Shown here in pieces: positions 8,025 to 30,914 of a DNA stretch of 64,000 nt. The notes beneath the pieces were generated by a model. That model did not search any database, was not told the DNA's origin, and saw only the letters and a list, made by a program, of their open reading frames with translations. Origin of the DNA: Candidatus Endomicrobium neocapritermitis (GTDB taxonomy: Bacteria; Elusimicrobiota; Endomicrobiia; Endomicrobiales; Endomicrobiaceae); contig WRJZ01000049.1 of NCBI GenBank assembly GCA_009778325.1, positions 1 through 64,000 of the forward strand, read 5' to 3'. Every line of letters starts with the position of its first letter. The first letter of the stretch is position 1. Made by a program: the position numbers and the translations under genes.

Positions 8025-11000
8025 TTACGCCGCGATCAATATACTTTTTGCCGCAATCAGCGGTTTCTCAAATCTTTTTGCGTCTATTTTTATTTTGATT
8101 TTAGTATCATCGACTGCATTAAATATCATCGCAAAATAAGCGGCGGAAACCGAGTCTCTGTAATTTCCGCCCGAGGTAAACCCGCTTTTTCTTACGAAAT
8201 ATTCAGGCAGAGTTAAATTGTCTTCAAGATGCAAACTCAAATTTTCCAAGAGAGTTTTTCTTTCCGAATAAGGAGCAAGCATGAGATAATAATACAGGTA
8301 ATACGGATAAGCTTTTCCTGACTTCAACCCTCCGAAACCGCTGAGCGAATGCTCCTTAAATTTCTTAACCGTTTCTTTTTTATACCTGCCGAAATCGTCG
8401 GAATTAAGCATTGAGCTCAAAGAAAAAAACAGCAGTAAATCGGGAGTCTGAATTTTATCGTCGCCGGTTTCAAAATACTTTTTACTTATAAGCTCCTTCA
8501 TTCTTTTTATTTCAGATTCTATATACGACGAATGCCATGAATTTTCAGCCGATTTATTTACCGCGGCGCATATTTGCAGAGCATTCAGATAGAGCGCTTC
8601 ATATTCGGCAGAATCTATTGCGTTATTTTTACAGTGTTCTAAAATACCGTTCAAATAAGGAATTATTTTTTTAGCATAAGATAATCTCTCTTCCGCATGC
8701 AAATCTCCGTAAAACAAGCCAAACTGCTCAACAAGCCACAAAAGCATCGTCACATCGGTTTCTGCGCCGGATATTTCATTCCAGTTTTTGAAATATTTAT
8801 ACAGCTTTGAGGCAAATGATTTCTTATCTCTGCCGCCCAAATATAAGCCGTATAAAGACATAATTTCGCTTTTTTCGGGAGTATAATTTAGAAAATTATC
8901 TTTTACCGCAAAAGAATCGGCAAACGCGTATGACTTTGCCGTCAAATCAGATCCGGAAATATTATATTTGCCGTTTATAATCCCGTTCATAAACCCGATA
9001 AGCTGCATTGTGTAAAGCCTCTTGTCTTTCTCGGATACGGAATTGCTTTTTAGTTCAAGATTATTTATATAGCGCATAACGGCAGACTCATCTCCGAAAT
9101 TTTCCAAATATTTCTTAGCGATAGGAAAAAGAGTGTTATTCTGCGAAATATACGTTAAAAAATCTTCCGCGTCTTTGCCGTTTGTTTTTATATAAGAATA
9201 AAGCGCGTTAAAAACAAGCGCTCCTTTGGCTTTAATCTTATGTATTGAATTTTCTTCGTCATTTATAATAAGTTTTTCGGCTTCAGCCGCAAGTTTCGAA
9301 TTTTTTATGAATTCATTATAACCTTTCATATAATATTCCGACGGATTGGCATAAGCCTGCTTCAGCAGATCTTTTTTTCCGAGCCTTATGCTTTCAAGTT
9401 TTATTCCGGCGTCGGTGAAAAAAGAAAGCGGAAAATTTATACGTTCAGCCCCGCTGTTCTTTAAAAGATCAAGCGTTTCCCGTATTCCGTATGAGTCATT
9501 AATTCCGGACTTGTACAATACGTTCTCTCCTTTTTTAGCGGCAAGAACAAATACGTTTTCTTTAACGGGATATTTAGTATTATCGTCATCCTCAAATATC
9601 AAAACCATTTTTTTATCAAGCCCGTTTTGCAGCTTTGTTTGCAGGTGAGCGGCAATACGTTCTTTGCCGTGATAAGCGTCAATATTAGTTATAAGAAAGC
9701 CTCCTGTGCGCATATTTTTGGCAAGAAAAGACATTCTGCCGTCATAAGAAAAAGACGCGGGGTTTATTTCAAACTCAGGAAAAATGACGCTTTCCCCGTT
9801 GTTACGGCTTTCAAAATAACCTTTGCCAAAATCAACGGATTCCGCCAAAGTCATCAAATTTGTCTTAACGATGACTTTTATGCCTTTTGATTCCAGTATT
9901 ACCGACGCTTCCTTAAACCTGTTAAAAACAATATATTCCATGTATTTAATCTGCTCTACGGCCTCGTCCCATTTTCCGGCGTTAAGCGATTTTATTTCGG
10001 ATATTTCATCTCCGCTTAATTCTTTTTTTCCGCTGAGCACCATAGCCGCGAAATATTCAAACGTTTTTTCGGCGCCGGAGACAAAATCCGTTTTTTTAAA
10101 CTCTTCAAATCTGATGGCTTCATCATGCTTTGTCTTTAAATGCGACAGAAGAATGCCGGCGGCATAAAATCTTGAAGAGACCTTTTTCCATGTTTTAAGG
10201 TCTGCTTTTTCTTCAAGCATAAGCCCCAGAAAACTGCTGTCTTTATATCCGATTCTTGTCATTTCATGCCGCAGGTCGGCAAGCATAGGATTGAAAACAT
10301 TTCCTATTACGGAACCGTTTTCCGTTTCTGCATAAAGATTTGAAATGATCACCGTGTTTATTATTTTCGGATCAAGAAGCCTTTCCAGCTGTAAAATATC
10401 CGAAACCGTATTCAGCGTCAAAGAAGGAATTATTTTCTGAACGACATTATCCGCCTGAAGTTTAACTTTCGGAGCGTCGCGCTGTTTAAGCGAAGCCAAT
10501 GCTGTTAAATCGGATAAATTATTAATATACGCTTTCGGATCGGAATAAAATATATTTTTATCAAGTTTTTTAAGCTTATAATCTTCGGCGTCTATATCGC
10601 CTGTTATGCTGCGGTTAAAATTCAAAATGAAAGCCGCGTCGGAAAACAATGCCGAAATAAGGCCCGTATCAAGAAAATTATTTTCAAAAACATTGAAAGC
10701 GGAGGCTTCATCGGACAATGTGATAAAAGAATGTTCTTGCGGAGAAAGAGCTGTTTTATCAGAACTTATTTCTTTGTTTATATAAAGACTTCCGAAATTT
10801 ATCCCGTTAAGCATTTCATCATTCATAAAAGAATCATTCAATATCTGTGGATTGGCAAAAACACCGGCACCATCAATAGAAATCATGGACATCGAACCGT
10901 TTCCAAGGGAATATCCAAGTATTTTTTGAAGCTGTTTCAGTTCTTTTCTTCCGGATGCCGCATCCTTCAAAACTGCCAGCATTCCCCTTCCTAAAAATAT

Positions 11001-14000
11001 TTTCTTTATTAAAGCGTCTGAAGTATCTTCATAATCATCGGAAAGTATAGCGTTAATTATCCTGTATTCATTTTCCCCGATTGCTCCGCTGTATAGAGGA
11101 ACGAATTTCAAAACATAAGAATTTTTATACTCTTCGCTTATAATTACCTTTGCGGAAATGACGCTTGCGCCTATGGGAATATTGACGATTATATTTTCTT
11201 CCGCTTCCGAAACGTCTTCAATGTCGTTTTGTATAGCAGCGCTGACAGAGTTGAATCCTGCCTTAGACGCAGCTAAAACATGCCCCTTATAATCAGGATT
11301 CATGCTTGGCATTAAAAAAATAAATGTTTTTTCTTTTCCGCGATTATGTCCGGTTATCATATTTGAAAGCCTGCCGGAAAAAGAAACATTATTAGTTCCG
11401 TAATTTACGGCCTTTAAAGACGCTTTGGCGGAATGCCTCGCCGCGGATTTTATTTTTTGTCCTGCGGCATTGTTTTCCGGAAGACTTGTCAAAAATGACG
11501 TTATAGTATCATAATATTTGCTCCCGGGTTCCGCTTTGCTCAGCAGAGATTCGGGAGGTCTTACGATATTCACTTTAAGAGCGCTGTTATCACCTGCGTA
11601 AAAGTTTTTATGTATTTCAAATATGCCTGAAAAAAAATCATAATATTGTCTTCTTATTTCCCTGTCGCTTATTCCGGATATTATTTTTGAAAGATAAACG
11701 TCTATTGAGTCGCCGTTGTTCAGCATCGTGTAAGGTATCATGATATGGTTAAGGAAATCCAGTTTAAATTTAACGCCTTCATAACTTTCTATATAATCGT
11801 TTAACATCAGCATATACTTTGTAAACTCTTTCATCTTGCCGCTCTCCATTGTTATTGAAGAAAGGCCTGAAAATGCGGATATCTGCTCGCTGCTTCCGTT
11901 TTTTTGTTTTAAAAGATTTTCAAAAGCCGTTTTAAGTATATAATTCGAAATTTTTTCAATGTCAAAAGTTTTATATATTTTCCTCAAAAGACTTTCTCCT
12001 GGCTGCCGCTCTCCTATTTTCCCCGATACAAACAGCGGAAGATTCTGCGAACGTATCTGCTCATATCCGGAATCAGAGCTTAAAAGAGTTATATCTCCGG
12101 TCTGCTTCAAATCTCCGATATATATATAAGAAGGATCGGCAATAATAATGCTTCCTTTTTTAATGCTGTTTTGAAACAGCCCCACGGCATTGAGCACGGA
12201 TATTTCAAGAGGGGTTACGCTTGTTCCTCCTGAGGGAAAAGGTATCATATTTAATATATTTTTATGATTCAGACCGTCAATATTTAAAATTACCGCGTCA
12301 ATTTCCGAGATATCTTTCTTTGCAAGTTTTGGATATTTATATTTAAAGTCTTCAGAATTAATATACGCAAAAACATCGGTTAAGGCATTGCCGTCTCCGC
12401 GATTTTTATTTATGATAAATTCAATTTGCACGTGTTTTAAATTTCCGTTGAGCATAATCTCGGCGACCATATCTTTAATATCATTTATACCGTCATTATC
12501 ATAATTAACGGAAACAAACATAATATCCGGAACTTTTCCGCCCGGAACATCAAACAGCCGCAGCGCCTTGTTTTTAACTATTTCTTCCGTCAGAGAAGCA
12601 GGATATTCTTCATTTAGATTCCCGGCTGAAGTTATTTTGTGAAACTTTGTGTGTATTAATCCGAAAGTTATCGGAATCCAATGCATAAAAATCGCTATTC
12701 CTATTCCCGTTATAAAAACTATGAAAAGTTTATACGGGATAAGGTAAAGATTGTTTGCGATAACAGTCGTTGCAAAAAACAGCAGCGGAAATAATCTTGC
12801 AAGCACTTTTCTTAACTTCCAAAATTCGTTCATTCCTATATCAAATCTTTTCGGGTTTCTTTTTGAATGAAGATAATTTTCGGAAAACATCATCAGGCTG
12901 TCCCGGTCATACAGTCCGGGAACGAGCGAATTACCTATCATTGTCAAGTCGCGCATTGATTTTAAAAAACCTTTTTGCGAAGCGTAAATTCCGAAATTTA
13001 TGCCCATTATATATCTTACAACCGTAAGTATTTTAAACTTTTCAAGAAAAAACCAAGGACCGTTTTCTGATATTCTGTAACTGTTAAGGATATCGGCGTT
13101 TAATGCATAACTGAGAAGCTTATAATATGCTCTTGCGTAGCGCCCTGTTTCTTCAAAACTTCTTATTTCAAACAAGACTTTCTCTTTTTCGGAATCGGGC
13201 ATGGTTTTTACCCTGTCCATTGTCGCATTATATAAAAGACTGAAATCCTGTATTATTGAAATAATTTGCTCTTTATTTCCTGGCATAAAAGCACTTTCGG
13301 AAAACACGGTAATTCTTATCAGCTGCAAAGCGTATTTTCTTATTATTTCAAGCCTGTTAACCGTCAAATCTCCGGATTTTAAAACACTGTCCCATTTTTC
13401 TAAATATTCGCGGGAAGCTTCCGTAATATTTTTTTTGACGTCATCATACCATTCAATACGGATTTCATCTTTAAAAGGAATGCGTGCGCACTTTTCGCTT
13501 AGACCCGGATAAAAATCTTTAAACTCAGGTTCGGAATTTATCAAATCCAAAACGCTTTCAATATTTTTCTTTATTTCATATAAAGTATTTTCATTTCCGC
13601 CGTCATATAAACGGACGGATGCTTCCGCAAAACGTATCTTATCGCGCAGGGTTTGCGAACCGGAATTGCCGGACAAAGACTTTTTCAAATTCTCTAATTC
13701 TTTTTTTATTTCTCTAAGCAAAGTATCTTCATCCGACATGTAATACATATCTTCAAAGTGATTTTTTTCGGACAAAGAAAGCTTTTTTATTTTCTTGCCG
13801 TAAAAAGAATTGCGCTTCCCTAAAAAAATCAAAAATCTGTGCATAAAAACAGATAACCCGAGTCCGGTGCAGAGAGAAAAAATAATTGCGCCTGTCGCTC
13901 CGGTTTGACCTATAAGAGACAAGTCCCCGTTTACGCTCGTAAACGCTATTACTAAAGTTGAAACAATATACTGAAAAGCCAAAATCAGCGACAGAACTCT

Positions 14001-17000
14001 CTGTATCGCTTTTCTTTCAGCCCATCTTTTTTCAATACCGAGATAAGTTTTCTCGGATGGATTTTCCTTTTCGTCTATATAGGCGTTAAAGTCTCTCATA
14101 ATCGAGTCATAGTCATACATTGACCTGCTTACCGCGTTTCCAAGTGTATAAAGTCTGAAAACTTGTTTTTTGAGTTTTGCTTTTTCTTTTTGAAAATTCG
14201 AATGTATGCCGAATATTCTTCTGTTAACAGGCATGATTTTTAACCTTTCAAATATCGATGATTTCGGGTATATATATCCTCCGAGTATGGATATATTTTC
14301 AAAGCAGTCCAGCGTTTTAAGATATTCAAGCGAATAATATTCGACAAAAGCAAAAAGTTTTTTTAAATTTTCAAAATACCGTCTGTCATTAATATTTTCA
14401 ACTTTATTATTTTGCAAAAATTCATTTATCAAATCTATGTTTTCACCGCTTTTTTCCGCAATATTTTTATACAGGGAAACTAATTTTTTTCTTTCGGTAT
14501 CAAACTCTTTTTTTTGAAATCTCGTATTAACTATTACTCTTATAAGCCCGTTGTATTCCGACTGCATCAAATCAGCAAACCCGTTGTCATAGCTATTTAA
14601 AGATGCATCTTCGGAAACAGTTTGATTTATTTTGGAATTATAATATTTAATCAAACCGGCAAACAGCTCATTTTCATATCCGAAAGAATAAAACGAATGC
14701 GGCTGATTGTAAGACGTTATTGTTATTTTCTTAATAACGTCATGCAGGTTTTCATTTTGCGAAACGTCAAAAAAAGAAGAGTACTCTTCGTAAAAATTGC
14801 CAAAATCTTTGTCTACTCCTGTTTTTGTAAAATAAGATAAAGAATCCTCGCCGTTTTTCATTCTCAGCAGCGGAATGAGTATATGCTGTATAAAATCGAT
14901 CCCGGGAGATGTTTTTGCGGTGTCCTTATTACGGTATATATTTTTATATAGCAGTGAAATTTGCTCCCAAAATGAAGAGTATACCGAAGGGTCGTCAAAA
15001 CTGAACAGAATATTTCCGGTGGTAGTTTCAAACTGTTCCGCAAGACGGTTATCGAGATTGTAAGTTTTTTCCAATATGCCTTTTTTTTCAAGTTTATTGC
15101 TTATTTGTTCCAATTCGAAGTTATAATATATTTTTCTTGCGATATTTACCTTTGGGTCTCCGCCGTTGTTTATTATCCACGGCAGCCCGTAGCCCGTAAT
15201 ATCGTTATAGCTTACCATAGAAGAAATTATCGTTATTTCGCTTCTAGGTTTCATTTCCCCGATATATATTTTTGACGGGTCCATCATGGCAAGCCCGCCC
15301 TTTGCGCCGAATGACCGGCATGCTCTTATCCCGTTTAATATGCCGAGTTCAAGCGCCGTTATTTTTGTTCCGTTAAAATGAAAAGGCAACTCTCTGCAGA
15401 CTTCAGATTTATCAAGTCCGTCTACATTAACAGCACAAATTTTAAGCTCGGAAAATTTTTTATCCTTGATATTCTTAAACTCTACGCCTTTTTTTAATGT
15501 TTCAAGATACTCTGCTATTCCTATAAAAGATGCACCCGTGCCGTCGTCTGAAGCATGGATAAATTTAAAGTTAACTTTAGACAAAGGCGTTGACAAACGC
15601 ATTCTTTGTAAAGCATTTTCATAAAATTCTATATCTTCTTTATTTTTAAGGCTGATAAGCACAATATCCGGCATAGCGCCGTTCAGAGAGTCCAGAGTTC
15701 TGAGATACTCGTTTAAAATAACCGATTCCCTTGTTTTATCGTCATGAATAACTTTTACTCTTTTATTTTGCAGAAATATTTTTCTGAAAATATTTTTAAT
15801 TTTCGCGGAAATATTTATTTTTTCGGGCTCAATTATTAAGCGTTTGTTTTTACCTATTTTAACAGTCAGGGGTATATTTCTTTCCGAAAGCAGTTTATTA
15901 ACGGCGTTAACAGCCTGAACGGAATAAATGTCGTCAAACGAAGACCAAAAATCAACTATATTTTTGAGCTCATATCCTTTCCCGACGCTCAGCAAAGGCG
16001 GAGCCAAAGCCTCTGCCTTTGTGGCGGCTGACATACGGATCAAATTTCTATAGATATTTTCTTCATGATTGTCCGTAGCGGGAAGAAGTGAAATATATGA
16101 TATATTTTCGTTTTTCAGCATTGATGTCAATGATCCGTGAAATCCGCCTATTACCGCAACGCTGACACTTTTATAAGCGTTTCCGCAGAAAGCAATATCT
16201 CTGCCAGGATCATTTGAATCAATCACTTTTCTGATATTTTCACAAAAAATACCGTTTCTGAGAATATTATTTTCATAATACTCTTTTATCTCCGCGTCGG
16301 ATAACACTTTTGATACCGTTAAAAAATCTTCTTTTATAAGATATTTGAAACAGGTTTTCAAAATAAGTTCTTTATTTTCAATGATATACTTAAACTCGTC
16401 TTCCGAAATTTCAAGTTTGCGGTATTTATCCAAAATATCCGCAAAAAAATACAACTTTATGTATTCTTTTCTTCCTGACGACAGTTCAATATTGCCGAGT
16501 ATGTTATTTTTAAACATTTCCGTCTGTTCTATCAGTTCGTAAGGCTTAAGAGAATGCTTAAGTTCCTGCAAATACAGCATTTCCGATAAATCGGGATAAT
16601 CGGCAAGAATTTTTACAAAACGGCCTTTCAGTATTGCGTATAAATCGGATAAAAATATATCGCCTTGGGATTGCGTTAATTTCTCGGTTAGCTGAAGATA
16701 TTCTCCGTACGGAATATTTTTCTGAAGAAAATTCATAACATGATATATATCTTTTTCCGCGTTTTTTTTGTTCAGATTTCGATTTATGAAATTAATCTTT
16801 AAGTATTTGTTTATTTCATCGTAATTTTTTAAATCTATAAAAAAATTGCCGCTTATTATTCCTATTTCGGATATGACTGTTTCCATATCTCCGTTAAGAT
16901 TTTTTATTTTTTCAATATTTTTTATAATGCCGCATATCTCATTTTCGGCATTATCATATATTTCTTTTTTAATACGTGAAAAAATATTGTAATCAGATTC

Positions 17001-17477
17001 ATACTTTAAAGCCGCTATTTTCAGATTTCTGATATAAATATCCCAATCTTCTATCCCGTAAAAATTTTGAAAATCATTCTTAACGCTGAAAACTTCGCTT
17101 CCGCTTACGAGGCCTGAAAGCAAAAATATATTCATAATTTCTTTCTTTTTGGCCGTAGAAATGCCTAAACTGTCTATTTTGCCGAACGGCGCACCTTCGG
17201 CAAAAATATAGTCCAGCGTATCGGATGAGTGAAGTTTTCCAAGTAAATTAAATATTGATTTTTGAACCGCGGGATTTGTGTGAAGATCCTGTATAAATAT
17301 TATAAGAGGGGTATCGGGTTTATATGATGATTCAATTACATTAAATTCAGAAAAGATATCGGCCTGAGCTGCGACGGAAGAATCTTTCTTTATAGAAGAA
17401 TGGGTGAAATCCGAAAATAAAGAAATTAAAACGCACGAAGAAACCAGAAGAGATATGATTTTCTTTACTGCAAACAT
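8025..17477 (-). CDS. Giant exported protein 1 (3150 aa) with TraB/ChaN-like N-terminal domain
   Basis: Residues 1-25 are hydrophobic and look like an export signal; the ATG at 17477 follows AGAGGTGTTAAG. Residues about 55-475 match the N-terminus of the 3635-residue giant in this window: IFIQDLHTNPAVQKSI, FAEGAPFGKID and AVIGGFHGSLTSML, an arrangement resembling the TraB/EreA/ChaN (Tiki) superfamily. The centre is a mirrored duplication: module A (about 600-900; NVDGLD, MMDPSKIYIGEM), membrane module B (about 1080-1230, paired hydrophobic segments around FMHRFLIFLG), then B' (1484-1616, FMHWIPITFG) and A' (1650-1956; NIDGLN, IADPSYIYIGDL). The last 1100 residues are helix-rich and unrecognised. 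The protein ends KSILIAA, close to the other giant's RSILSAA. The function is unknown; a periplasmic or envelope location is inferred. Confidence 0.8.
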   Translation of the reverse strand: MFAVKKIISLLVSSCVLISLFSDFTHSSIKKDSSVAAQADIFSEFNVIESSYKPDTPLIIFIQDLHTNPAVQKSIFNLLGKLHSSDTLDYIFAEGAPFGKIDSLGISTAKKKEIMNIFLLSGLVSGSEVFSVKNDFQNFYGIEDWDIYIRNLKIAALKYESDYNIFSRIKKEIYDNAENEICGIIKNIEKIKNLNGDMETVISEIGIISGNFFIDLKNYDEINKYLKINFINRNLNKKNAEKDIYHVMNFLQKNIPYGEYLQLTEKLTQSQGDIFLSDLYAILKGRFVKILADYPDLSEMLYLQELKHSLKPYELIEQTEMFKNNILGNIELSSGRKEYIKLYFFADILDKYRKLEISEDEFKYIIENKELILKTCFKYLIKEDFLTVSKVLSDAEIKEYYENNILRNGIFCENIRKVIDSNDPGRDIAFCGNAYKSVSVAVIGGFHGSLTSMLKNENISYISLLPATDNHEENIYRNLIRMSAATKAEALAPPLLSVGKGYELKNIVDFWSSFDDIYSVQAVNAVNKLLSERNIPLTVKIGKNKRLIIEPEKINISAKIKNIFRKIFLQNKRVKVIHDDKTRESVILNEYLRTLDSLNGAMPDIVLISLKNKEDIEFYENALQRMRLSTPLSKVNFKFIHASDDGTGASFIGIAEYLETLKKGVEFKNIKDKKFSELKICAVNVDGLDKSEVCRELPFHFNGTKITALELGILNGIRACRSFGAKGGLAMMDPSKIYIGEMKPRSEITIISSMVSYNDITGYGLPWIINNGGDPKVNIARKIYYNFELEQISNKLEKKGILEKTYNLDNRLAEQFETTTGNILFSFDDPSVYSSFWEQISLLYKNIYRNKDTAKTSPGIDFIQHILIPLLRMKNGEDSLSYFTKTGVDKDFGNFYEEYSSFFDVSQNENLHDVIKKITITSYNQPHSFYSFGYENELFAGLIKYYNSKINQTVSEDASLNSYDNGFADLMQSEYNGLIRVIVNTRFQKKEFDTERKKLVSLYKNIAEKSGENIDLINEFLQNNKVENINDRRYFENLKKLFAFVEYYSLEYLKTLDCFENISILGGYIYPKSSIFERLKIMPVNRRIFGIHSNFQKEKAKLKKQVFRLYTLGNAVSRSMYDYDSIMRDFNAYIDEKENPSEKTYLGIEKRWAERKAIQRVLSLILAFQYIVSTLVIAFTSVNGDLSLIGQTGATGAIIFSLCTGLGLSVFMHRFLIFLGKRNSFYGKKIKKLSLSEKNHFEDMYYMSDEDTLLREIKKELENLKKSLSGNSGSQTLRDKIRFAEASVRLYDGGNENTLYEIKKNIESVLDLINSEPEFKDFYPGLSEKCARIPFKDEIRIEWYDDVKKNITEASREYLEKWDSVLKSGDLTVNRLEIIRKYALQLIRITVFSESAFMPGNKEQIISIIQDFSLLYNATMDRVKTMPDSEKEKVLFEIRSFEETGRYARAYYKLLSYALNADILNSYRISENGPWFFLEKFKILTVVRYIMGINFGIYASQKGFLKSMRDLTMIGNSLVPGLYDRDSLMMFSENYLHSKRNPKRFDIGMNEFWKLRKVLARLFPLLFFATTVIANNLYLIPYKLFIVFITGIGIAIFMHWIPITFGLIHTKFHKITSAGNLNEEYPASLTEEIVKNKALRLFDVPGGKVPDIMFVSVNYDNDGINDIKDMVAEIMLNGNLKHVQIEFIINKNRGDGNALTDVFAYINSEDFKYKYPKLAKKDISEIDAVILNIDGLNHKNILNMIPFPSGGTSVTPLEISVLNAVGLFQNSIKKGSIIIADPSYIYIGDLKQTGDITLLSSDSGYEQIRSQNLPLFVSGKIGERQPGESLLRKIYKTFDIEKISNYILKTAFENLLKQKNGSSEQISAFSGLSSITMESGKMKEFTKYMLMLNDYIESYEGVKFKLDFLNHIMIPYTMLNNGDSIDVYLSKIISGISDREIRRQYYDFFSGIFEIHKNFYAGDNSALKVNIVRPPESLLSKAEPGSKYYDTITSFLTSLPENNAAGQKIKSAARHSAKASLKAVNYGTNNVSFSGRLSNMITGHNRGKEKTFIFLMPSMNPDYKGHVLAASKAGFNSVSAAIQNDIEDVSEAEENIIVNIPIGASVISAKVIISEEYKNSYVLKFVPLYSGAIGENEYRIINAILSDDYEDTSDALIKKIFLGRGMLAVLKDAASGRKELKQLQKILGYSLGNGSMSMISIDGAGVFANPQILNDSFMNDEMLNGINFGSLYINKEISSDKTALSPQEHSFITLSDEASAFNVFENNFLDTGLISALFSDAAFILNFNRSITGDIDAEDYKLKKLDKNIFYSDPKAYINNLSDLTALASLKQRDAPKVKLQADNVVQKIIPSLTLNTVSDILQLERLLDPKIINTVIISNLYAETENGSVIGNVFNPMLADLRHEMTRIGYKDSSFLGLMLEEKADLKTWKKVSSRFYAAGILLSHLKTKHDEAIRFEEFKKTDFVSGAEKTFEYFAAMVLSGKKELSGDEISEIKSLNAGKWDEAVEQIKYMEYIVFNRFKEASVILESKGIKVIVKTNLMTLAESVDFGKGYFESRNNGESVIFPEFEINPASFSYDGRMSFLAKNMRTGGFLITNIDAYHGKERIAAHLQTKLQNGLDKKMVLIFEDDDNTKYPVKENVFVLAAKKGENVLYKSGINDSYGIRETLDLLKNSGAERINFPLSFFTDAGIKLESIRLGKKDLLKQAYANPSEYYMKGYNEFIKNSKLAAEAEKLIINDEENSIHKIKAKGALVFNALYSYIKTNGKDAEDFLTYISQNNTLFPIAKKYLENFGDESAVMRYINNLELKSNSVSEKDKRLYTMQLIGFMNGIINGKYNISGSDLTAKSYAFADSFAVKDNFLNYTPEKSEIMSLYGLYLGGRDKKSFASKLYKYFKNWNEISGAETDVTMLLWLVEQFGLFYGDLHAEERLSYAKKIIPYLNGILEHCKNNAIDSAEYEALYLNALQICAAVNKSAENSWHSSYIESEIKRMKELISKKYFETGDDKIQTPDLLLFFSLSSMLNSDDFGRYKKETVKKFKEHSLSGFGGLKSGKAYPYYLYYYLMLAPYSERKTLLENLSLHLEDNLTLPEYFVRKSGFTSGGNYRDSVSAAYFAMIFNAVDDTKIKIKIDAKRFEKPLIAAKSILIAA

Positions 17478-20006: not shown

Positions 20007-23000
20007 TTACGCGGCGCTCAATATGCTTCTTACGGCAAGAGATGTCGAAACCTTCAATTGTTTTGCTGTTTCTATAATCCTAAATCTATCCTGAAAAAGC
20101 GCATTAAAATTCTTAAATATATCAATTGCCGCCGCAGTTTCTTCCGCTTTTAGCGGCTTTACGGCATATTCGTTTTCCGCCAATATATCTTCTATCGCTC
20201 TATTTATCATCGCAGTCATCAAATTCAAATACTCCGCTGCATTCATATCCGTAAGAGCACTGCTGTCTTCTTTTAATAACTCTTTAATATCCTGCCCTTG
20301 AAGCTTTAATTGAATAGCAATCGTCAAAAATGCCTGACGGAACTTATCGTCTTTCCGGAATTTTTCCATATCCATGACAGCGCCGTATTTTTCCGATGTT
20401 TCAAATATTTCTTTTCTTACGCTGTTTGCGGCTATTCCTCTTATAAAACCTATGGCTTCAACATATTGTCCTTTGCTTTTCAGATAATTCAAATAAGACA
20501 TTGAATCTCCGCTCAATCCTTTTTCAGTCATATTTTCTACGGCCGCTTTTGCTTTGTCATTATCGGTTAAATCTTCAGTCAGCAATTCTTTAAGGGATAT
20601 AATATCGCCCGCCGTGTAATCAAACTTACTGTTTAACGACGCCGCATATCCTTTCTTGTACAGTTGCTTTGAACTTCTCGCTTTTTTAGTTTCTATTATA
20701 ACTTCTCTTATCTCGGCAAATATCATAGTATCTTCAACGCTTACTGCCGCCGTGTTTTCTTTTCTCAAAGCTTCCGATACCTTTTTTGCCGAATCCGCAT
20801 CCTTTAAAAAACTTATCTGCGCGTACGATTTATATCCTGAATTATGATTTACAACCGGAAGCATAGAATATTTTTTCCATATGTCTATATTTACTTTAGC
20901 AAGCTCGTTAATTAAATCATCGTTAAAACGAACCGTTATTCTTGAATATATTCCGTCTTTTGCGCTAAGCCTTGCTTTTTGTATTCTCTGTAACAGATTT
21001 TCAGCTTCAGAAACTGTTTTTATCTCGGATGCGTTTATTTGGCATCCGTCAATGCCTGTAAGCAAATTCATATCAAAATTCTGCGATCCGGTTTTAATCT
21101 CAAATCTCATTCCTTCTTCTCTTAATTTCGCTATAGACGCTTCGTTTTGTTTTATCTGAGACTCGTTCAATATAAATATTCCCACATAATTACTTCTGAA
21201 CTCCTTTCTGCACACAGTCTCAAAATTACCGACAGTTCCTTTGTCGGACATATCATAAACCCTTTCATTCGTATTTTCTTCAACGGAATAAGTGTGGTTG
21301 TTTTTCATCAAATCTATAACACTTACTGCAGTTATATCGTTTGTAACAATAACCTGTTTTATATTTTTAAAAGCATCGTCTATAATACCTTCGGCAATAA
21401 GTTTTTCCAGCTGCTCTTTCGCGGCTTCTAAATTTATTTGCATACCTTGCTTTGAATAAAATGATATTTCTCTTATCCCGTATTTGTTTTTTCTCACATA
21501 AGTACTTATTTTTATTTCTTTATCGTCAGCAGTTTCCTGAGTAAACGTGGCTTGAACTTTCCGCCAGCCTTCGCCTTTCGGTTTTCTTGTTACAACGCTT
21601 GCCACGCCCGCGTTAAATCCCTGCTTCTGCAGTATTTGCGCCTCTTCATAATCATTTACCAAAACCATATTTTTTTCTATATCCAAATCTTTATGTTCGA
21701 GATATTTTATATCGCTCTCTGAAGAAACTATTTCAACGGCAATTTTCTGAGAGACAACGGCAGGAGTTGCAGGATTAGCGGCGGTTAGGGCATTGCTTTC
21801 CGCAACTTTCAATTTTTTAAACAGATTCTCTTTCTTTTTAATGAAAAGCCAAAAAATAGCCGTATGACCTATAAAATTTAACATCGCGCCCATAGTAATA
21901 AATATTGGAACTGAAAAAACTGCTAAAAAAGGGTTCCACTCCAAAACAATACCTACGGCGATTTTGACGCCTATCGTTGTATGGAAACGAAGCGGATGTA
22001 ATTCTTTGTCTGCAATAAACTCTGCAATTTTTAGCGGGCTTACGCCGTTTTCAAGCATATCTGCAATAGTTTGAAGGTTTTTATCAAGAATTGCGTTAAT
22101 GCTTTCCGATCTTTTAACGGCTGCCGGAGTTGTAGGTTGGGCGCTCGCAGCTTCAAAGTTCCGTAAACTTACTTCGATTTGTTTATCCGGAATAGATTTT
22201 ATTATTTCATCTAAACCGTCAGGTTGAATTTGGATAAATCCGAATTTGTTTGATAATTCCTGATCTCTTACAGGCGTTAAACCCCGCGTATCAACAAATG
22301 CCAAAGATGCTTTATACGACTTTTCCTTTAACGGGTTTAAGTTTACAGGCATTCTTAGTGTTTTCAAATCTCCGTTTTCATCGCGGTATTGCGCCAGTAC
22401 AAAAGGCTCAAGCGCGCCGTGGTCATGTCTTTCCGCATAAAATTTGGCTTGAATGTTGTTTATTGCAAATATCTCTTTAAGTTTATTTTTTGCCGCATCG
22501 TCAACAGGCAACGACTCAATACCTTGATGCTCTTTTTCGCCGCTTTGCTTAAACAATAAAATGCCCGTAAGTTTTTTACGCAAGATTTCATTGGTGATTT
22601 CTTCATAATGAAGATTATTTGATAAATCCGCATTTTCTTCAAAGCTTATCTTTTCTCTTAAATATATTTTGTTGTTAGTTACAGTTTCAACAATTTTAAC
22701 GCAAAGCGTTTTTCCGGCATATGCTTCTCCCGATAAAGCAAAATATTCTCCGTATTTGTTTTGCCAAAGCTCGTTATAATTTATAAACTGCGCCAGTGCA
22801 TTGAGCTTTCGCATTGTATCTGACTTATCTTCCAAGTTAAAGTCGAAATATAAATTTATTTGACTAATGTCTTTTAACAATTCCCGCGAAGCGTCAATGT
22901 CTATTGCCGCAATGTCTAAAGATTTTAAGATTTTTTCATCTATTTGCGAAAATATTATTGGTTGTATTTTATCAATGTCAACATTACTGATTTTGACAAG

Positions 23001-26000
23001 TTTCCACTCTATTTCATTTTCTTCATCTTCATTTTTACCTATCGATATTGCCGTGTCTTTTGAAATAGGCAGTATTATTCTGCCGTTATCTAACTGATAT
23101 GCCGTATTAAAATAACCTTTTAGCAAAAGCGATTTTATTAAAGACAACTTTTTTCCTACAACATCTGATTCTCCAAGCCGTTGCTGCTCAATTTTTAACT
23201 CTTCAAGTATTGCCGCGTTATCAAATAAACCGCCGTCTTTTTGCATTGTTTTCATCGGATAAATAATGGTTGCGTTTACGTCCTGTGCTCTGTATTCTTT
23301 TTGAATAGATTCAATCCAATCGGAGTTAGTAGGACTGCCGTACATTAACTCATATCCGTTCTTTGAGGCAAAACTCATTAAGCTTTCCATTGATTTAAGA
23401 TACAAATAATTTTTAACTGCCGCATGTTTGCTTGTTCCGTTTTGCAATGACGGAATACTTTCATGTCCGTTTATAATTATTACTTTTTTATTTCCGGCGG
23501 AACCGACAACATAATCTATATAGCCTATAAAATCGCCGTTATAATATAATTTCATCACCTCATAGTCAGGATGCATAAGCCATATATTTCTAAACGAATT
23601 GCGGCATTGGCCGTCATAAGTACAGTCGCCGGTTAATTTTCCGATATTATATATATCTATACTGCGGCCGCTGAGTTCAACCTCAAAACCCTGACCTCTG
23701 ACATAGCGATACTTGTCAAGCATTTTCGTCATTTCTTCTTTTACATTTTGCTCTTTGCTTGGCAAATCATTTCTAATATCAACTATTGCTTTCACCGCTT
23801 CGTCACAATAAAGTTTAATAATATTGTTATTCTCTAACAGTTGCTGCAACGTATAATTTGTCTTAAATACAAAATATTCATCTTTCGTATTGCCAAAAAG
23901 TTTCATTAAATTTGCTAAATCTTTCTTTAATGCTTCTATATTTGAATCCGACACATCATTTAAGTTATGCTCTTGCGGATTGAATATATTACCCTGCTCT
24001 TTGGCTTTTTTTTCAATGATCTCCTTAAAATTTCCATTTCCTTCATATATTGAATTTAACACTTCATCAGGGGTATTGGTAAAAACATTTTCTAAATCCA
24101 GTCCATATCGTTTGCTAAGCAAAAATAATTTCTTCAATTGATTGAAATCTATTTCTTTATCAGAAAAACTTATTTTACCGCAGATATCTTCGATGTTTAG
24201 CGATTTATTTAAATCAATGATTCTGAAAATATTGCCTTTCAGATCTCCGCCGATTCTCTTCAATCTTCCAAACGAAGTGAGGGTTTGCCTGAGGTCTGTA
24301 CTATCAACACCGGTAATATGAGTGAAAATCATATCATCATCCATAAGCTCCATATCACCTTCAATTTCCCAATCTTCCGTAATTAAATCTAACACATCTA
24401 ATATTAATATTTCTCTATCCACCGGAATCTTTTCTACGACAAGTTTTCCGTTTTCATTACGACGGGCATTTATGCCTAACAATCTAAATTTGTTAATGTT
24501 ATTTTTTTCGTTCTTAATTGCTTCTATGTTAAATTTGTTGATTCTTTTTAAGTTCTTACCTAAGGAAGTAATTTTAGAACCCACAAAATACATATTTTTG
24601 CCTATAATTTCCAAATTGCCAAGCGAAGTGATTGCGGCCTTGCTAAAATCAGCATTCCCGCCTATAGTTTTCAAATTGCCAAGCGAGACGACTTTAGAAT
24701 ATGTAAAAACCACACTCCCTCCGATACTTTCCAAATTTCCCAGCGAGGTAATTGTGGAATTCCTAAAATCCGCACCGCTCTCAATTTCCCAAGGCAGCGT
24801 AATAGCATCTATATCTTCCTGGCTTAATTTTTTTATTTGTTCGGATGTGATTTCTGTGACAATAAGCCTGCCTTTTTCATAGCGGTATTCTATGCCAAGC
24901 TCATCAAATTTTTGCATAACTTTACTTACGCTCTCGGGCGGCTGCGAATCCGAATCTGATTCCGGCTTTGCATTCGGATTTATTATCTTCACTTCGGAAA
25001 CAGGAAATAGGAAAGCTAAAGGGTTTGTATTTTCATCTGCTTTTACTAAATGACGATTTGTTATAAAATAGTCTATTCCTTTTTCGGTTTTTATGTCGAA
25101 TGTTTCTTTTGAGAAATCTAACTTTTCGCCGGATATGTTCGTGATTTTATACATGCCGTTTTCTTTTGTTATAAATAAAACCGGAGTATAGCTAAAATCT
25201 TCATAATACGCTCTCTCCCCTTCATTTAAAACAGGGATAACAAAAACGCTATCGGCAATATCAAGTTTGTAAGGCGTTTCAAATTCTGCTTGACCGTTTA
25301 ATTTGCGTATTATTGCATCTCTGTCAGAAATGTCATTCTTATTATTTAAAATACTCGCGGCAAATATCTCTACTTTTTCACCTGAGATTTGAACATCCGT
25401 TCTTGAAAACGCATAACCGTTCTTAACGGCCTTTTCTACTCCAACGCTGCGGCCATACCATCCCTTGTTATATATCGATGCTTTCAATGCCAAACTTGGT
25501 TCATCCGAAATTTCATTGATAACAAAAAAATCATTTTTTCCGTTAAAGTATATAAGTATAGGTTTTGAGGCGTCGGCATTATTCCCGTGAGAAAAAGCAT
25601 TTTTAATAACTTCATATAATGTATCAGCCGAAATCGCCGTTGCGCTTATCATCGTTATTTCGTTTGTAATTTCTAGCAGCATTTTTGCTGGGCTATCGGT
25701 TATAAAACTTTGACTGTCCGCATCAAATATGTTTGGGGTTATCGATATTAAATAAGGTTTATTAAAACCTATTCTATTAATATTTTTTCCGACTTGAAAT
25801 TCCTTTGAAAATTCGGAAACAAGATTTTTAGTCTTTTGCATTCTAGACTTAGCCGTTTTTAAATTGCCGGGTGAAGGAATTTTGGAATCATTAACAAAGA
25901 CATTTCCGCCTATATTTTCCAGCTTATCAAGCAGTGTAAGCCTGGTAAAGATAAAATGGTTAAAATATGCATTGCCTTTTATGTTTTTCAAATTTCCAAA

Positions 26001-29000
26001 CGAGGTAACTTGGGAGTTGTAAAAATCAGCCTCGCCTTCAATTTCCCAATCTTCCGTAATTAAATCCAGCACATCTAATACTAATTTATGATTGTATCTC
26101 GTAATCTTTTTTACGATAAGTTTACCGTTTTCATCGCGTTCTGCGTCTATGTCTAATAATTTGAATTTCTTAATGTTATCCGGTTCATTTCTAATCGCTT
26201 CTATATTTAATTCTCCGATTTTTTTTATCTTATCGCCTAAAAAAGTTATTTGAAAATTCCAAAAATACACTTTTCCGCCTATAGTTTCCAAATTTCCAAA
26301 CGAGGTGATTTGGGAATTCTCAAAAAATACGCTTCCGCCTATAGTTTCCAAGCTGCCAAGCGAGGTAATTTTGGAACTATAAAAATCCGCATTGCCTTCA
26401 ATTTCCCACGGCGCTGTAATAGCGTCTATATCTTCTTGAGTTAATTGCCGGCTGTGGTCCGCCGTAATTTCTTTAACAATAAGCATGCCTTTTTCATAGC
26501 GGTATTCGATACCCAGCTTTCTAAATTTTTCCATAACTTTTCTTACACCGCTTTCTCCGGAATAAATTTTTAAAGAAATCAAATAACCGACTAAAACAAA
26601 CGCTGTGGGAACGCCTATCATCAACGGCAATAAACTTATTCCGAATAAGGCTGATATCAAAAATGCCGCAATGCCGCCCGATACCGGAAATCCGAATTGT
26701 ACCGAATAAGCGTAATCTTCACCTTTTCCTGAAAGATGTATTAATTCGTGCGATAGTGCGCCTGTAATTATCAATAAAAATTTCTTTACTGCAGCAGGTA
26801 AAGGCAGGGCATTGTAAATATCGAATATTTGTTTATTTGCTTTGATTTGATTATTTTGGACATCGGCAAGAAAATACTGCCCTTTTCCAAGGGTTTCATC
26901 AAAAACTATTTTTAAATCTTTGCCAAAATCTACTTGCGTGTCATATGCCGGAGGAGCGCGAAGATTAAATGCCGTTTTAAATTTATCTGAAATTACCGCA
27001 AGCGCTTTTGCCGTCAGATAAATTACGACCGGAACAAACGGAATTGCCGCCCCTGCCGTCACCGCGGCTATACCGGCAAAAAATACGGGAGACACGAAAG
27101 AATTCAGCATCAGAAAAACAAACCCTGATATCCCTCCGGCAACAAACGCCGGTTCTATGAAATTTTCTGAGCTTATCCATAAATTATTGTAGTTTATAAG
27201 CCGCGGAGGTATTTTATTAACCGAATGCCGTTCAAATTGCGATATAAGATAATAGCTGGATAAGTTATTGTACGTTTCTTCTTTGTCGAAATTAAAATTA
27301 TCTTTCGGAACAAAAAGCCGCCATCTCGACATAAATTTGCCGAAATACATTTCGCCGTAACCGTTAATTCTGGTGTCATACATTTTACTATGAATTTTAA
27401 TCAAGTCGCCCCAAGTAATAACATTGCCGTTATTTGAATTTGTTTTATAATAGTCATACATAGTTTTTAAACTTAAATCCCATCCTCCGCTTCCGATACT
27501 ATGATTAAAAATTGCAATTTCATCGGCAGCTCCGAACATTTTAGGCGGAGTTAAACCGTTTTTCGCCAATTCGTAAGCCACGCCTTTCATTCCATGCACG
27601 GAATAACATGAGGCAAAATACAAAGTTATATCGTCAAGGTTCACTCCTTTTTCCGAAAGCTTTTTTAACGCTTTAGCTATTTCTGTATAATGTATTTTAT
27701 TTTCGTTTTCATCAATGTCTTTATCGCCTTCGCCGAGCCAAAAATTATAATCTCCGCCGTATCCGCGGCCATGTCCTTTAAAAAGAAACAGCCATTTTTC
27801 TCCAGGATTTACTTTTAACATTGCATCAATCATCTCTTGTTTATTGCTGCCGTTAAATTTAATGTCAGTTATATTTTTTTCGGGAATTTCAATATTCGCG
27901 GTATTCAGGACTTTTTCTAAAGCATCGCCGTAAAATCTGTCTTTATTGCCCCACCCGAAATGCCCGCTCGTCCACACTGCATTATTGCTGATTTTAAGAA
28001 TATGCGTGTTTTTATCAATAAACGGAACATCTTTATATTTTTTATACAATTTTATCCAATCTTGTATAGCCGCGCCGATATTTTCATCTGTCAAATCCAT
28101 AAAATTATTTTCAATAGTTCTTTGTATTGCCACGGCAAGATAATACTTTATAAGCGGAATTCTAAAAAATTCATTATCCGGACTTTCTTCAATAAACTCT
28201 CTTAAATATTCATTGAAAGTTTTGCTTTCGTAAATTATTATTTCATCATTTATCTTTTCGGGATCAAAAGCAGTTCGCGACAATTTAAATTGTTTGGCAA
28301 GCTCTTGCGGAACAATCGGATCAATACCTTTCCTTATTTCCAAAGCAAACAGCACGGCAATTGCCAGCGTTATAAAAATTGAATAAGAAAACAAGACAGC
28401 TGTCAGTTGAAGTGAAATCGGACTTGACAATGCGAACCATGTCATCGCCAATAAAGGCGAGTATTTTACAAACTGGAAAAATCCGTCGCGAACTTTCCCG
28501 CCTATTGTGTCCTCCTTAAAAACAAACGAAAAAGGAATCAATGATTCCCAAAAATTTTTATTAAATATTTTTTTGTCTGCTGCAGGGACTGCCGGACTTA
28601 CGGTTGCGCTTTCCTTAGAGCCAATATCAAATTTCAATTGTTTGTCTTTGGATGTTACCGTGACGGCTTTGCCTTCTTCAGAGCTGAGGTCTAAAATTTT
28701 TATATATGACTTAAAGTTTTCGGCTAATAAAGCTAACTGCCGTACTATCGGGCTTGAAATATTTTGACGGATTTCGGCTGTTTTCAATAAACTTTCAAGG
28801 CTATTTATGTTCCCGTCAAGCGCTTTTCGCACTTTTTCCAAATCAAGATTTTCAATCAGCTCTGTCGTTATCTTGTCTTTATAGGAACTGTTTTCAGGCA
28901 GGTTTTCATTTATTACCGCTATAACTCTTTCTATTATTTCTTCATTATCGTCGGATTCAAGCAGTTTCGCTCCGCGGACAAGTTTTATTATTTTCTGCGC

Positions 29001-30914
29001 CTTTTTTGCCGCATCGGAAGGTTCGGTTTCCGGCGGCAATTTTATATCGCCGTATAATTCTTTTATTCTTTCGTCGGAAACATTCATGAATTTAAAGATT
29101 TGTATTTGCTCCGGTATAGACAGGGATGCTATCATATTGGCTAAAGCAGACGAAGACAGTTTGGAGTTTGAAGAGCGGAGTATGGCGTTATCGGCGGCAA
29201 CACTTGATTGCTTCGCGGAATTTTCAATTCCGTTCGCAATGACAGACATGACTTCATTTCCGCTGTTTGTTAATTTACGTGATTGCAGTTTTGCTATTTT
29301 GTGATATACTTCCTCCGCTTCTTTTACGCCTTCCGTCACATTAGGGGTTATTACTATATACGAAATACCGTTGTCTTTTAATATCTTAGACACGCCCTCG
29401 GTGTGGAATCCGCCTGTTATTACTATGTCGACTTGTTTACTGTTCAAATTATTGATTAGTTCGCTCAAAGACAGCGTGGGGTGCGAGGTATGGAGAATAG
29501 AATTAGTGTACCCCCCCCCCTGTTGATTTTCCAGATTGCAAATATCGTCGGGAACAGGATTCATTTGCAATTGCCGTACAAAGTATTTATTTCTGTCCGT
29601 ATTTATATCGTAAAATCTGTCGGACTCTTTTATATGTTCGTCGAGTAAACTTAACACTCTGTTATCAACGTATTTTACCCAAAGTTTTCTGTACTTTTCT
29701 ATATTTTCTTTATAATACTCATGATCTCTTGAAGTTATTTTTGACGTCAAATAATCTTTCAAATATTTTTCAAAATCGATTAAAAATACCGCTTCTCTTT
29801 GAGCTTTCGTATCCGAAAATCTTGAATTAATTTCGTTTCTTAATCTCTGCTCTTCATTTACCAATTCTATCGGGTTAATTATTTGGCTGATTTCTACATA
29901 TGCAAAAAATTTGTTAAGTTCGGGAAAGCCTGCCGTTAAATCAATTTTAAGTTCTTTTGACAAACTTACTAAATACCCGTAAAGCTTTTCCGTATTGTTG
30001 AAATTATTCGTCGCTTCTAAAATCATTTTGTAAGTGTTGTACGGCAGTTTTTCTTTCAGCAGATATACGTATCTTTCCAGTTCTTTGCTTATATTTTTAT
30101 AGTTGAGTTCTTTTTCTTTTTGTATCAGGTTTATATATAAACTTGTATTTTCGTATTTATCTATATCTATGCCTAATCTGTCAATGTGTTTTAACAATAA
30201 CGCGTAATATTTCCTGGCGTTTATTTCATGTTTCGAATAGCTCTCGAAAAGATTTTCTATTTTTATTTGCTTTTTATTGTAATATCTTTTTTTTAATCCC
30301 TGTGTGGACTCTTCTATTCCTTTGAGCGTCAGCAGAATTTCATCCTGACTTTCCAATATATTTCCGAAACGTTTTAAATTCTCCAGATATTCTTCTTTGC
30401 TTTCCAGCCCTTTGATTATATTCTTTCCGCTCAATGCTGAATAATATTCAGCTCCCGTTAAACGCCCGGTTTTCAGAATTTTGTCTAGCAATTCGTTAAA
30501 ATTGTCTTTGCCGTTAATTCGTAATTCGTCATTCGTAATTCGTAATTGACTGAGCCAGCTTGTGTCAATATCTCCGTACGCGCCTTCAAGATATATCGCG
30601 TTTAAACCGCCGTCAAGCTTTTTATCTATAAGTTCTATGATATTTGATATGTTTTTTTGTACCTGCGGATGGCAGTGCAAATCCTGTATTTGTATGACTA
30701 CTCTTGATGAGTTTGCTATATTTGTTTCGGTTATTTTTCCGTAAGAATACGGCAATATGAAATCATTAAATATCTGAGTATGCTGTTTTCCTGCCTGAAG
30801 ATTGGCAGATACTTCCGCTATTACATTTCCATATACAAATGAAAACAAAAAGCAATTGATTACAAAAATTGCCGTTGTTTTTGTGTAATTGATTTTATGT
30901 AATAATTTTAACAT
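20007..30914 (-). CDS. Giant exported multidomain protein 2 (3635 aa)
   Basis: Residues 1-34 are an export signal. About 70-540 is a TraB/ChaN (Tiki)-like domain: IQIQDLHCHPQVQKNI, YLEGAYGDID, ITGGFHTEGVSKIL. Paired hydrophobic segments follow (about 820-862). About 985-1150 looks like a caspase-fold (clan CD) peptidase: LFKGHGRG (His about 1047) and YFASCYS (Cys about 1102). More hydrophobic segments precede SHELIHLSGKGEDYAY (about 1390), a HExxH zinc motif. Two SLGNLETIGG repeat blocks (about 1455-1690 and 1998-2250) flank a GHKL ATPase-like segment with LYEVIKNAFSHGN (about 1770). The remainder is unassigned, with a hydrophobic pair at about 2965-3025. It ends RSILSAA, like giant 1. A G10 tract lies at codons 465-468, and a repeat fragment is inserted near residue 125. 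Role unknown; a self-processing surface or periplasmic protein is inferred. Confidence 0.8.
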   Translation of the reverse strand: MLKLLHKINYTKTTAIFVINCFLFSFVYGNVIAEVSANLQAGKQHTQIFNDFILPYSYGKITETNIANSSRVVIQIQDLHCHPQVQKNISNIIELIDKKLDGGLNAIYLEGAYGDIDTSWLSQLRITNDELRINGKDNFNELLDKILKTGRLTGAEYYSALSGKNIIKGLESKEEYLENLKRFGNILESQDEILLTLKGIEESTQGLKKRYYNKKQIKIENLFESYSKHEINARKYYALLLKHIDRLGIDIDKYENTSLYINLIQKEKELNYKNISKELERYVYLLKEKLPYNTYKMILEATNNFNNTEKLYGYLVSLSKELKIDLTAGFPELNKFFAYVEISQIINPIELVNEEQRLRNEINSRFSDTKAQREAVFLIDFEKYLKDYLTSKITSRDHEYYKENIEKYRKLWVKYVDNRVLSLLDEHIKESDRFYDINTDRNKYFVRQLQMNPVPDDICNLENQQGGGYTNSILHTSHPTLSLSELINNLNSKQVDIVITGGFHTEGVSKILKDNGISYIVITPNVTEGVKEAEEVYHKIAKLQSRKLTNSGNEVMSVIANGIENSAKQSSVAADNAILRSSNSKLSSSALANMIASLSIPEQIQIFKFMNVSDERIKELYGDIKLPPETEPSDAAKKAQKIIKLVRGAKLLESDDNEEIIERVIAVINENLPENSSYKDKITTELIENLDLEKVRKALDGNINSLESLLKTAEIRQNISSPIVRQLALLAENFKSYIKILDLSSEEGKAVTVTSKDKQLKFDIGSKESATVSPAVPAADKKIFNKNFWESLIPFSFVFKEDTIGGKVRDGFFQFVKYSPLLAMTWFALSSPISLQLTAVLFSYSIFITLAIAVLFALEIRKGIDPIVPQELAKQFKLSRTAFDPEKINDEIIIYESKTFNEYLREFIEESPDNEFFRIPLIKYYLAVAIQRTIENNFMDLTDENIGAAIQDWIKLYKKYKDVPFIDKNTHILKISNNAVWTSGHFGWGNKDRFYGDALEKVLNTANIEIPEKNITDIKFNGSNKQEMIDAMLKVNPGEKWLFLFKGHGRGYGGDYNFWLGEGDKDIDENENKIHYTEIAKALKKLSEKGVNLDDITLYFASCYSVHGMKGVAYELAKNGLTPPKMFGAADEIAIFNHSIGSGGWDLSLKTMYDYYKTNSNNGNVITWGDLIKIHSKMYDTRINGYGEMYFGKFMSRWRLFVPKDNFNFDKEETYNNLSSYYLISQFERHSVNKIPPRLINYNNLWISSENFIEPAFVAGGISGFVFLMLNSFVSPVFFAGIAAVTAGAAIPFVPVVIYLTAKALAVISDKFKTAFNLRAPPAYDTQVDFGKDLKIVFDETLGKGQYFLADVQNNQIKANKQIFDIYNALPLPAAVKKFLLIITGALSHELIHLSGKGEDYAYSVQFGFPVSGGIAAFLISALFGISLLPLMIGVPTAFVLVGYLISLKIYSGESGVRKVMEKFRKLGIEYRYEKGMLIVKEITADHSRQLTQEDIDAITAPWEIEGNADFYSSKITSLGSLETIGGSVFFENSQITSFGNLETIGGKVYFWNFQITFLGDKIKKIGELNIEAIRNEPDNIKKFKLLDIDAERDENGKLIVKKITRYNHKLVLDVLDLITEDWEIEGEADFYNSQVTSFGNLKNIKGNAYFNHFIFTRLTLLDKLENIGGNVFVNDSKIPSPGNLKTAKSRMQKTKNLVSEFSKEFQVGKNINRIGFNKPYLISITPNIFDADSQSFITDSPAKMLLEITNEITMISATAISADTLYEVIKNAFSHGNNADASKPILIYFNGKNDFFVINEISDEPSLALKASIYNKGWYGRSVGVEKAVKNGYAFSRTDVQISGEKVEIFAASILNNKNDISDRDAIIRKLNGQAEFETPYKLDIADSVFVIPVLNEGERAYYEDFSYTPVLFITKENGMYKITNISGEKLDFSKETFDIKTEKGIDYFITNRHLVKADENTNPLAFLFPVSEVKIINPNAKPESDSDSQPPESVSKVMQKFDELGIEYRYEKGRLIVTEITSEQIKKLSQEDIDAITLPWEIESGADFRNSTITSLGNLESIGGSVVFTYSKVVSLGNLKTIGGNADFSKAAITSLGNLEIIGKNMYFVGSKITSLGKNLKRINKFNIEAIKNEKNNINKFRLLGINARRNENGKLVVEKIPVDREILILDVLDLITEDWEIEGDMELMDDDMIFTHITGVDSTDLRQTLTSFGRLKRIGGDLKGNIFRIIDLNKSLNIEDICGKISFSDKEIDFNQLKKLFLLSKRYGLDLENVFTNTPDEVLNSIYEGNGNFKEIIEKKAKEQGNIFNPQEHNLNDVSDSNIEALKKDLANLMKLFGNTKDEYFVFKTNYTLQQLLENNNIIKLYCDEAVKAIVDIRNDLPSKEQNVKEEMTKMLDKYRYVRGQGFEVELSGRSIDIYNIGKLTGDCTYDGQCRNSFRNIWLMHPDYEVMKLYYNGDFIGYIDYVVGSAGNKKVIIINGHESIPSLQNGTSKHAAVKNYLYLKSMESLMSFASKNGYELMYGSPTNSDWIESIQKEYRAQDVNATIIYPMKTMQKDGGLFDNAAILEELKIEQQRLGESDVVGKKLSLIKSLLLKGYFNTAYQLDNGRIILPISKDTAISIGKNEDEENEIEWKLVKISNVDIDKIQPIIFSQIDEKILKSLDIAAIDIDASRELLKDISQINLYFDFNLEDKSDTMRKLNALAQFINYNELWQNKYGEYFALSGEAYAGKTLCVKIVETVTNNKIYLREKISFEENADLSNNLHYEEITNEILRKKLTGILLFKQSGEKEHQGIESLPVDDAAKNKLKEIFAINNIQAKFYAERHDHGALEPFVLAQYRDENGDLKTLRMPVNLNPLKEKSYKASLAFVDTRGLTPVRDQELSNKFGFIQIQPDGLDEIIKSIPDKQIEVSLRNFEAASAQPTTPAAVKRSESINAILDKNLQTIADMLENGVSPLKIAEFIADKELHPLRFHTTIGVKIAVGIVLEWNPFLAVFSVPIFITMGAMLNFIGHTAIFWLFIKKKENLFKKLKVAESNALTAANPATPAVVSQKIAVEIVSSESDIKYLEHKDLDIEKNMVLVNDYEEAQILQKQGFNAGVASVVTRKPKGEGWRKVQATFTQETADDKEIKISTYVRKNKYGIREISFYSKQGMQINLEAAKEQLEKLIAEGIIDDAFKNIKQVIVTNDITAVSVIDLMKNNHTYSVEENTNERVYDMSDKGTVGNFETVCRKEFRSNYVGIFILNESQIKQNEASIAKLREEGMRFEIKTGSQNFDMNLLTGIDGCQINASEIKTVSEAENLLQRIQKARLSAKDGIYSRITVRFNDDLINELAKVNIDIWKKYSMLPVVNHNSGYKSYAQISFLKDADSAKKVSEALRKENTAAVSVEDTMIFAEIREVIIETKKARSSKQLYKKGYAASLNSKFDYTAGDIISLKELLTEDLTDNDKAKAAVENMTEKGLSGDSMSYLNYLKSKGQYVEAIGFIRGIAANSVRKEIFETSEKYGAVMDMEKFRKDDKFRQAFLTIAIQLKLQGQDIKELLKEDSSALTDMNAAEYLNLMTAMINRAIEDILAENEYAVKPLKAEETAAAIDIFKNFNALFQDRFRIIETAKQLKVSTSLAVRSILSAA
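24230..24925 (-). repeat. SLGNLETIGG repeat block 2 inside giant 2
   Basis: Second copy of an internal duplication. It starts KVMQKFDELGIEYRYEKG, then WEIESGADF and several repeats of about 20 residues of the form adFxxSxITSLGNLexIGG, followed by a second header (KFRLLGINARRNENGKLVV ... ITEDWEIEG). These resemble leucine-rich or receptor-L-type solenoid repeats and may bind ligands or partners. It closely matches block 1. Confidence 0.8.
25845..26550 (-). repeat. SLGNLETIGG repeat block 1 inside giant 2
   Basis: First copy of the duplication, starting KVMEKFRKLGIEYRYEKG, with APWEIEGNADF and repeats such as ITSLGSLETIGGSVFF and ITSFGNLETIGGKVYF. A second header follows (KFKLLDIDAERDENGKLIV ... 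ITEDWEIEGEADF). The header unit therefore occurs four times across both blocks. Confidence 0.8.
29206..29243. repeat. Imperfect palindrome embedded in giant 2 coding sequence
   Basis: GATTGCTTCGCGGAATT and AATTCCGTTCGCAATGAC form an imperfect dyad, read in frame as part of a linker (about residues 558-569, IANGIENSAKQS). The outer words (GTCATTGC, GAAGCAATC) resemble palindromic repeats that are intergenic in many bacteria and the GTCATTCTGCG element at 55781. Confidence 0.5.
29511..29520. repeat. Homopolymer of ten C (G10 in giant 2 sense strand)
   Basis: Ten consecutive C on the plus strand, read on the coding strand as G10 within CAG-GGG-GGG-GGG (Q-G-G-G, codons about 465-468). In an AT-rich genome this is a typical slipped-strand site; loss or gain of one base would truncate the protein before the GGFHTEG motif. 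Confidence 0.85.
30504..30548 (-). repeat. Hairpin-element fragment inserted in frame in giant 2
   Basis: 45 bp combining five AATTACG-type 7-bp words with the loop core AACGGCAAAGACAA, read in frame as LRITNDELRINGKD. Compared with giant 1, giant 2 is about 13 residues longer at this point, so the piece appears to be an insertion that kept the frame. The same words form the arms of the intergenic elements at 61838 and 62484. Confidence 0.8.

Follow-up and report, generated by a model that had tools for sequence, protein, structure and literature searches.

The 64-kb stretch of DNA analysed here (the window, part of contig C49 of an Endomicrobiaceae genome of 2.38 Mb in 54 contigs) contains an uninterrupted run of ten G within the coding frame of a giant gene. 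This raises the question whether the run is a switch, at which gain or loss of single bases turns the giant protein on and off, or a run that has grown there and serves no selected role. To answer it, the tract has to be seen in its gene, in its genome and in the family Endomicrobiaceae.

The tract and its gene

The features of the window that bear on the question are listed below.

20007..30914, minus strand: giant ORF of 3635 aa with a hydrophobic, signal-like N-terminus
29274..30914, minus strand: N-domain (QDLH...GGFH), common to about 17 giant ORFs of the genome
29478..29555, minus strand: variable linker (residues 454-479) which carries the tract and is predicted to be disordered; its tract-bearing insertion is missing in 40 aligned homologues
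29511..29520, minus strand: the homopolymer tract itself (G10), spanning codons 465-468; ON frame
29503..29505, minus strand: TAA stop reached when the tract gains one base (+1) or loses two (-2), by frame translation and direct reading
29465..29467, minus strand: TGA stop reached when the tract loses one base (-1) or gains two (+2), by frame translation and direct reading
29403..29414, minus strand: GGFH motif, residues 501-504, missing in the OFF frames
8025..17477, minus strand: a second giant ORF, of 3150 aa, which is a paralogue with the N-domain and without a tract

The run, which is C10 on the plus strand and G10 on the minus (coding) strand, occupies nucleotides 1395-1404 of the gene and is read in frame within the codons CAG GGG GGG GGG, just as a sequence-only reading of this AT-rich gene had described it. 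The next-longest C run in the window has 5 bases and the longest G run 4, and A/T runs reach at most 8 despite the AT-rich sequence. When the giant gene was shuffled among synonymous codons, a G/C run of 10 was reached in 5 of 20,000 shuffles. The tract also exceeds the cut-off of 7 or more G/C by which PhasomeIt defines hypermutable tracts (PMC6321876).

In silico, a slip by one unit leads to a stop in both other frames, at residues 469-470 or 482-483, so that about 3165 residues are lost; the early stop and the loss of about 3170 residues claimed from the sequence were thus borne out. The GGFH motif, said to follow closely, begins about 33 residues downstream of the tract. The product can be described as a giant repeat protein with a signal-like N-terminus. 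The protease domains which the same reading had assigned to it were not recovered, as Pfam gives only a weak, sub-threshold Recep_L repeat.

The tract is missing from both of the nearest homologues (71-72% identity), and among 41 aligned N-domains the tract-bearing insertion occurs in the window protein only. Conservation of the tract in orthologues was therefore rejected. In the AlphaFold2 model of the N-domain (mean pLDDT 85.5), residues 454-479 are the sole internal segment below 50. As such close homologues do without the tract and the loop is predicted to be disordered, the tract seems dispensable for the protein. None of 80 retrieved N-domain loci, which were picked by an intact conserved motif and are skewed to one subfamily, has a tract inside the giant ORF. 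One orthologue (G003:C186, L070) carries a different long insertion (ATTGCGAGGAAAGACGAAGTCTTGCCGAAGCAATC...) in the same linker before GGFH, and the linker thus seems to be a recurrent insertion site.

That the tract belongs to a dispersed repeat was considered and rejected, since the surrounding 173 bp are single-copy apart from short weak matches. Elsewhere, AATTCGTAATTCGTAATT-type repeats adjoin two tracts (in L041 and L042, immediately 5′ of the tract), and a related NYELRMTNYE-like stretch occurs inside a giant ORF (in the N-domain of L059); both look like dispersed repeats of the lineage.

Tract excess in the genome and in the giant-protein family

Long G/C runs are in excess throughout the genome. 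Compared with a geometric model, there are 17 runs of at least 8 bases (lengths 8-13) versus 9.9 expected, 14 of at least 9 versus 2.0, and 5 of at least 10 versus 0.4. Background statistics were taken from 297 kb, largely picked around tracts, together with exact genome-wide pattern counts. In the 297 kb, 395, 34, 3 and 1 G/C runs were counted at lengths 4, 5, 6 and 7, a drop that is faster than the geometric model has it, and A/T runs reach at most 9. Tract lengths in the genome peak at 9-10. Six contigs end exactly inside tracts (three with a left half and three with a right half) versus 0.007 expected, which fits length heterogeneity among reads or, equally, trouble in sequencing poly-G.

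The N-domain of the tract protein is shared by about 17 ORFs of the genome, with lengths up to about 9000 codons (loci L047-L069), and it recurs across Endomicrobiaceae and other Elusimicrobia; the relatives recovered with an N-domain alignment belong to Endomicrobium and other Endomicrobiaceae (Elusimicrobiota). Searches by Pfam, PDB sequence and Foldseek gave no convincing match for it, and a likeness of its motifs to the ChaN/Tiki superfamily was supported by none of the searches. Of the genome, 7.8% is taken up by the giant ORFs and about 1.2% by their N-domains. Given this share, six tract loci inside N-domains of giant paralogues correspond to a P of about 1e-8. The tracts are found at non-homologous sites within the N-domain, at 10-19% of the ORF length. 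Judged by flanks and domain content, contigs C19/C43 and C14/C26 each appear to represent two halves of one giant gene. The intact giant genes that carry tracts are in the ON frame in four of four cases. In relatives, a poly-C is present in the same linker before GGFH (G002:C238), and another tract is found in a different conserved stretch (G003:C36).

Tract genes of relatives and the origin of the tracts

In relatives, several tract genes are found in a state that can be read as switched off, with the two parts of one Pfam domain in different frames on either side of the tract. This holds for a Dam-type D12 adenine methylase (G004:C20, G9; domain positions 1-30 and 34-250), for AbiEii (G009:C59, C10; 1-112 and 120-235), for YrbL-PhoP_reg (G006:C13, G10; 1-88 and 87-183) and for the SpoVG-like regulator gene of Endomicrobium proavitum (G014, L130:9371-9381, G11; SpoVG 1-38 and 44-81). 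Two HsdS genes have one specificity domain on either side of the tract, again in different frames (G004:C37, G14, and G008:C203, C14), and FkbM methyltransferases and a Type ISP enzyme of relatives likewise read as frame-shifted. The wider frame analysis left out tracts at contig ends, because poly-G at such places can be an artefact (as in G004:C24, G33 and more). Other tract genes of relatives are in frame: DegT aminotransferases, sugar epimerases, UDP-glucose dehydrogenase, a sulfatase-fold enzyme and a family 2 glycosyltransferase.

DNA methylase, HsdS and Type ISP genes are split at tracts of G9, G17, G14, C14 and C13 (L136, L138 and L140 in G004, L297 in G008, L335 in G016). As read from sequence, these genes of Endomicrobiaceae relatives are candidate phasevarions in Elusimicrobiota. 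A methyltransferase or HsdS with a switchable tract, by which a phasevarion is recognized, was found only in the relatives G004 and G008; the window gene is not of this kind.

In the genome studied here, an FkbM-like reading frame follows a C10 at C38:45580. Homology to a relative begins at the edge of the tract, and the relative reaches about 90 residues beyond it on the upstream side. On this side of the tract, an ORF of 50 codons with a start codon is present in another frame. The C10 thus probably puts the FkbM-like gene out of frame, a case of moderate strength because the upstream piece has no BLAST match. Judged by these reading frames, the lineage contains OFF as well as ON alleles of genes with tracts, in other genes of relatives and probably in this one FkbM-like gene.

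The most serious rival to a switch is that the tracts are passive, i.e. that the mutational tendency of the family lets poly-G grow, with some slippage and switching as a consequence and no selected role. In the genome studied here, tracts are also found between genes, ahead of ruvX-, hypA- and pstC-like ones (names from sequence reading), which is what passive growth would give. A reduced endosymbiont genome of the family (G052, a contig of 1.11 Mb, L343-L360) has at least 26 G/C runs of 10 or more, mostly in non-coding DNA outside intact ORFs, with one in frame in a yidC-like gene. The window tract itself, missing from close homologues, is young. A G/C run of at least 10 is present in 42 of 80 genomes from the phylum, with an uneven spread. 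MutS and MutL are present in the genome studied here, MutS in all relatives checked, and MutL is partial in one incomplete genome. Loss of mismatch repair was therefore rejected as the cause of the tracts, and slippage would be slowed. Because of the tracts in or near housekeeping genes and in non-coding DNA, the presence of MutS and MutL and the runs in 42 of 80 genomes, unselected growth has to be taken seriously for any single tract. However, tracts are enriched in three places, namely N-domains of the giant paralogues, envelope genes and restriction-modification genes, and in a relative the same linker carries a tract made of the other base. On balance we consider the passive explanation rather unlikely.

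Four G8-G9 tracts of the genome studied here (L041:9289, L042:9471, L045:8942, L039:9880) lie 1-19 bases 5′ of start codons; the genes behind them are hypA-, pstC- and ruvX-like or code for small secreted proteins. These tracts could act as, or alter, the ribosome-binding site. The form cG(n)TA is common among the tracts of the family.

It is very unlikely that the presence or length of the window tract is an artefact of sequencing or assembly. Such artefacts do occur, as the contig-end poly-G of a relative mentioned above illustrates, and contigs that end at tracts point to assembly trouble there. The window tract, however, is internal to its contig and keeps a frame of 3635 codons open. In addition, similar tracts occur in the chromosome of Endomicrobium proavitum Rsa215, which was sequenced with PacBio (PMC4505116). 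This genome (G014), a single contig of 1,588,979 bp, has 11 tracts of at least 9 bases, and the tracts are therefore not only an Illumina artefact. PacBio sequencing of that date could miscount homopolymers. Three of the tracts in this genome, G9, G13 and G9 (L124:9625, L126:9168, L129:9645), belong to similar intergenic elements, in which the G tract is followed by TATAA and a terminator-like hairpin.

Equally improbable is slippage of RNA polymerase or the ribosome on a constant G run, resulting in a fixed mix of complete and shortened protein: RNA polymerase is known to slip on long homopolymers (PMC3711429), but the protein does not need such slippage since the tract is already in frame, and the tracts of the paralogues are at different sites with no common flanking recoding signal.

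The proposed switch and its meaning

We therefore favour reading the G10 tract as a slipped-strand contingency site, which we regard as probable although length change at the window tract itself is something we infer. DNA polymerase would add or drop G's within the run. Tract lengths of 7, 10 or 13 would keep the protein of 3635 residues in frame (ON), and other lengths would give a fragment of about 470-483 residues, devoid of GGFH and everything downstream (OFF). Tract length would change in the population, reversibly, and this would be kept by selection. The phase-variation switch proposed from sequence thus gains from the comparison where it concerns a slippage-prone tract, given the tract lengths, the 5′ placement, the contig breaks and the frame-shifted genes, and loses the protease domains.

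Known phase-variable systems offer several likenesses. The Campylobacter phasome (PMC6321876) is also that of an AT-rich genome with poly-G/C tracts that peak at 9-10 (53% at 9 and 26% at 10), mostly in ORFs and with some genes out of frame. It differs in that there are fewer tracts per genome here, in another phylum, Elusimicrobiota, within giant multi-paralogue genes and in the presence of MutS and MutL. For HsdS, the known poly-G case is NgoAV, a type I system of Neisseria gonorrhoeae (PMC5149525). Relatives of the present genome similarly carry G14, G17 or C14 between two HsdS specificity domains; unlike NgoAV, these cases are read from sequence, and they concern relatives rather than the window gene. 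In the survey of Orsi et al. 2010 (PMC2831843), poly-A/T tracts are overrepresented and biased to the 5′ ends of genes, and poly-G/C tracts are generally underrepresented. The window tract resembles the tracts of that survey in its 5′ position, where a slip removes most of the protein, but is poly-G/C. It is thus probable that the window locus represents a known kind of contingency locus in a new phylum.

Full-text searches gave no paper that deals with phase variation in Endomicrobium, which is weak evidence as most subscription journals lie outside such searches. Papers that name both Elusimicrobia and phase variation are few and, by title and abstract, none of them treats phase variation within the phylum.

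As several tracts are found in N-domains of giant paralogues, cells would differ randomly in the giant proteins that they make. Tentatively, we extend this to a full poly-G phasome of Endomicrobiaceae, in which giant proteins might be switched singly via tracts in their shared N-domain, leading to combinatorial variation from cell to cell, and in which HsdS and Dam-type enzymes might also be switchable (phasevarions).

Elusimicrobiota are gut and environmental bacteria and include intracellular symbionts of termite flagellates. If the tract is a switch, poly-G phase variation would be extended to this phylum, and some frame-shifted genes of such genomes would not be dead but in the OFF state. 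With its 11 tracts, the cultured Endomicrobium proavitum would make the idea directly testable.
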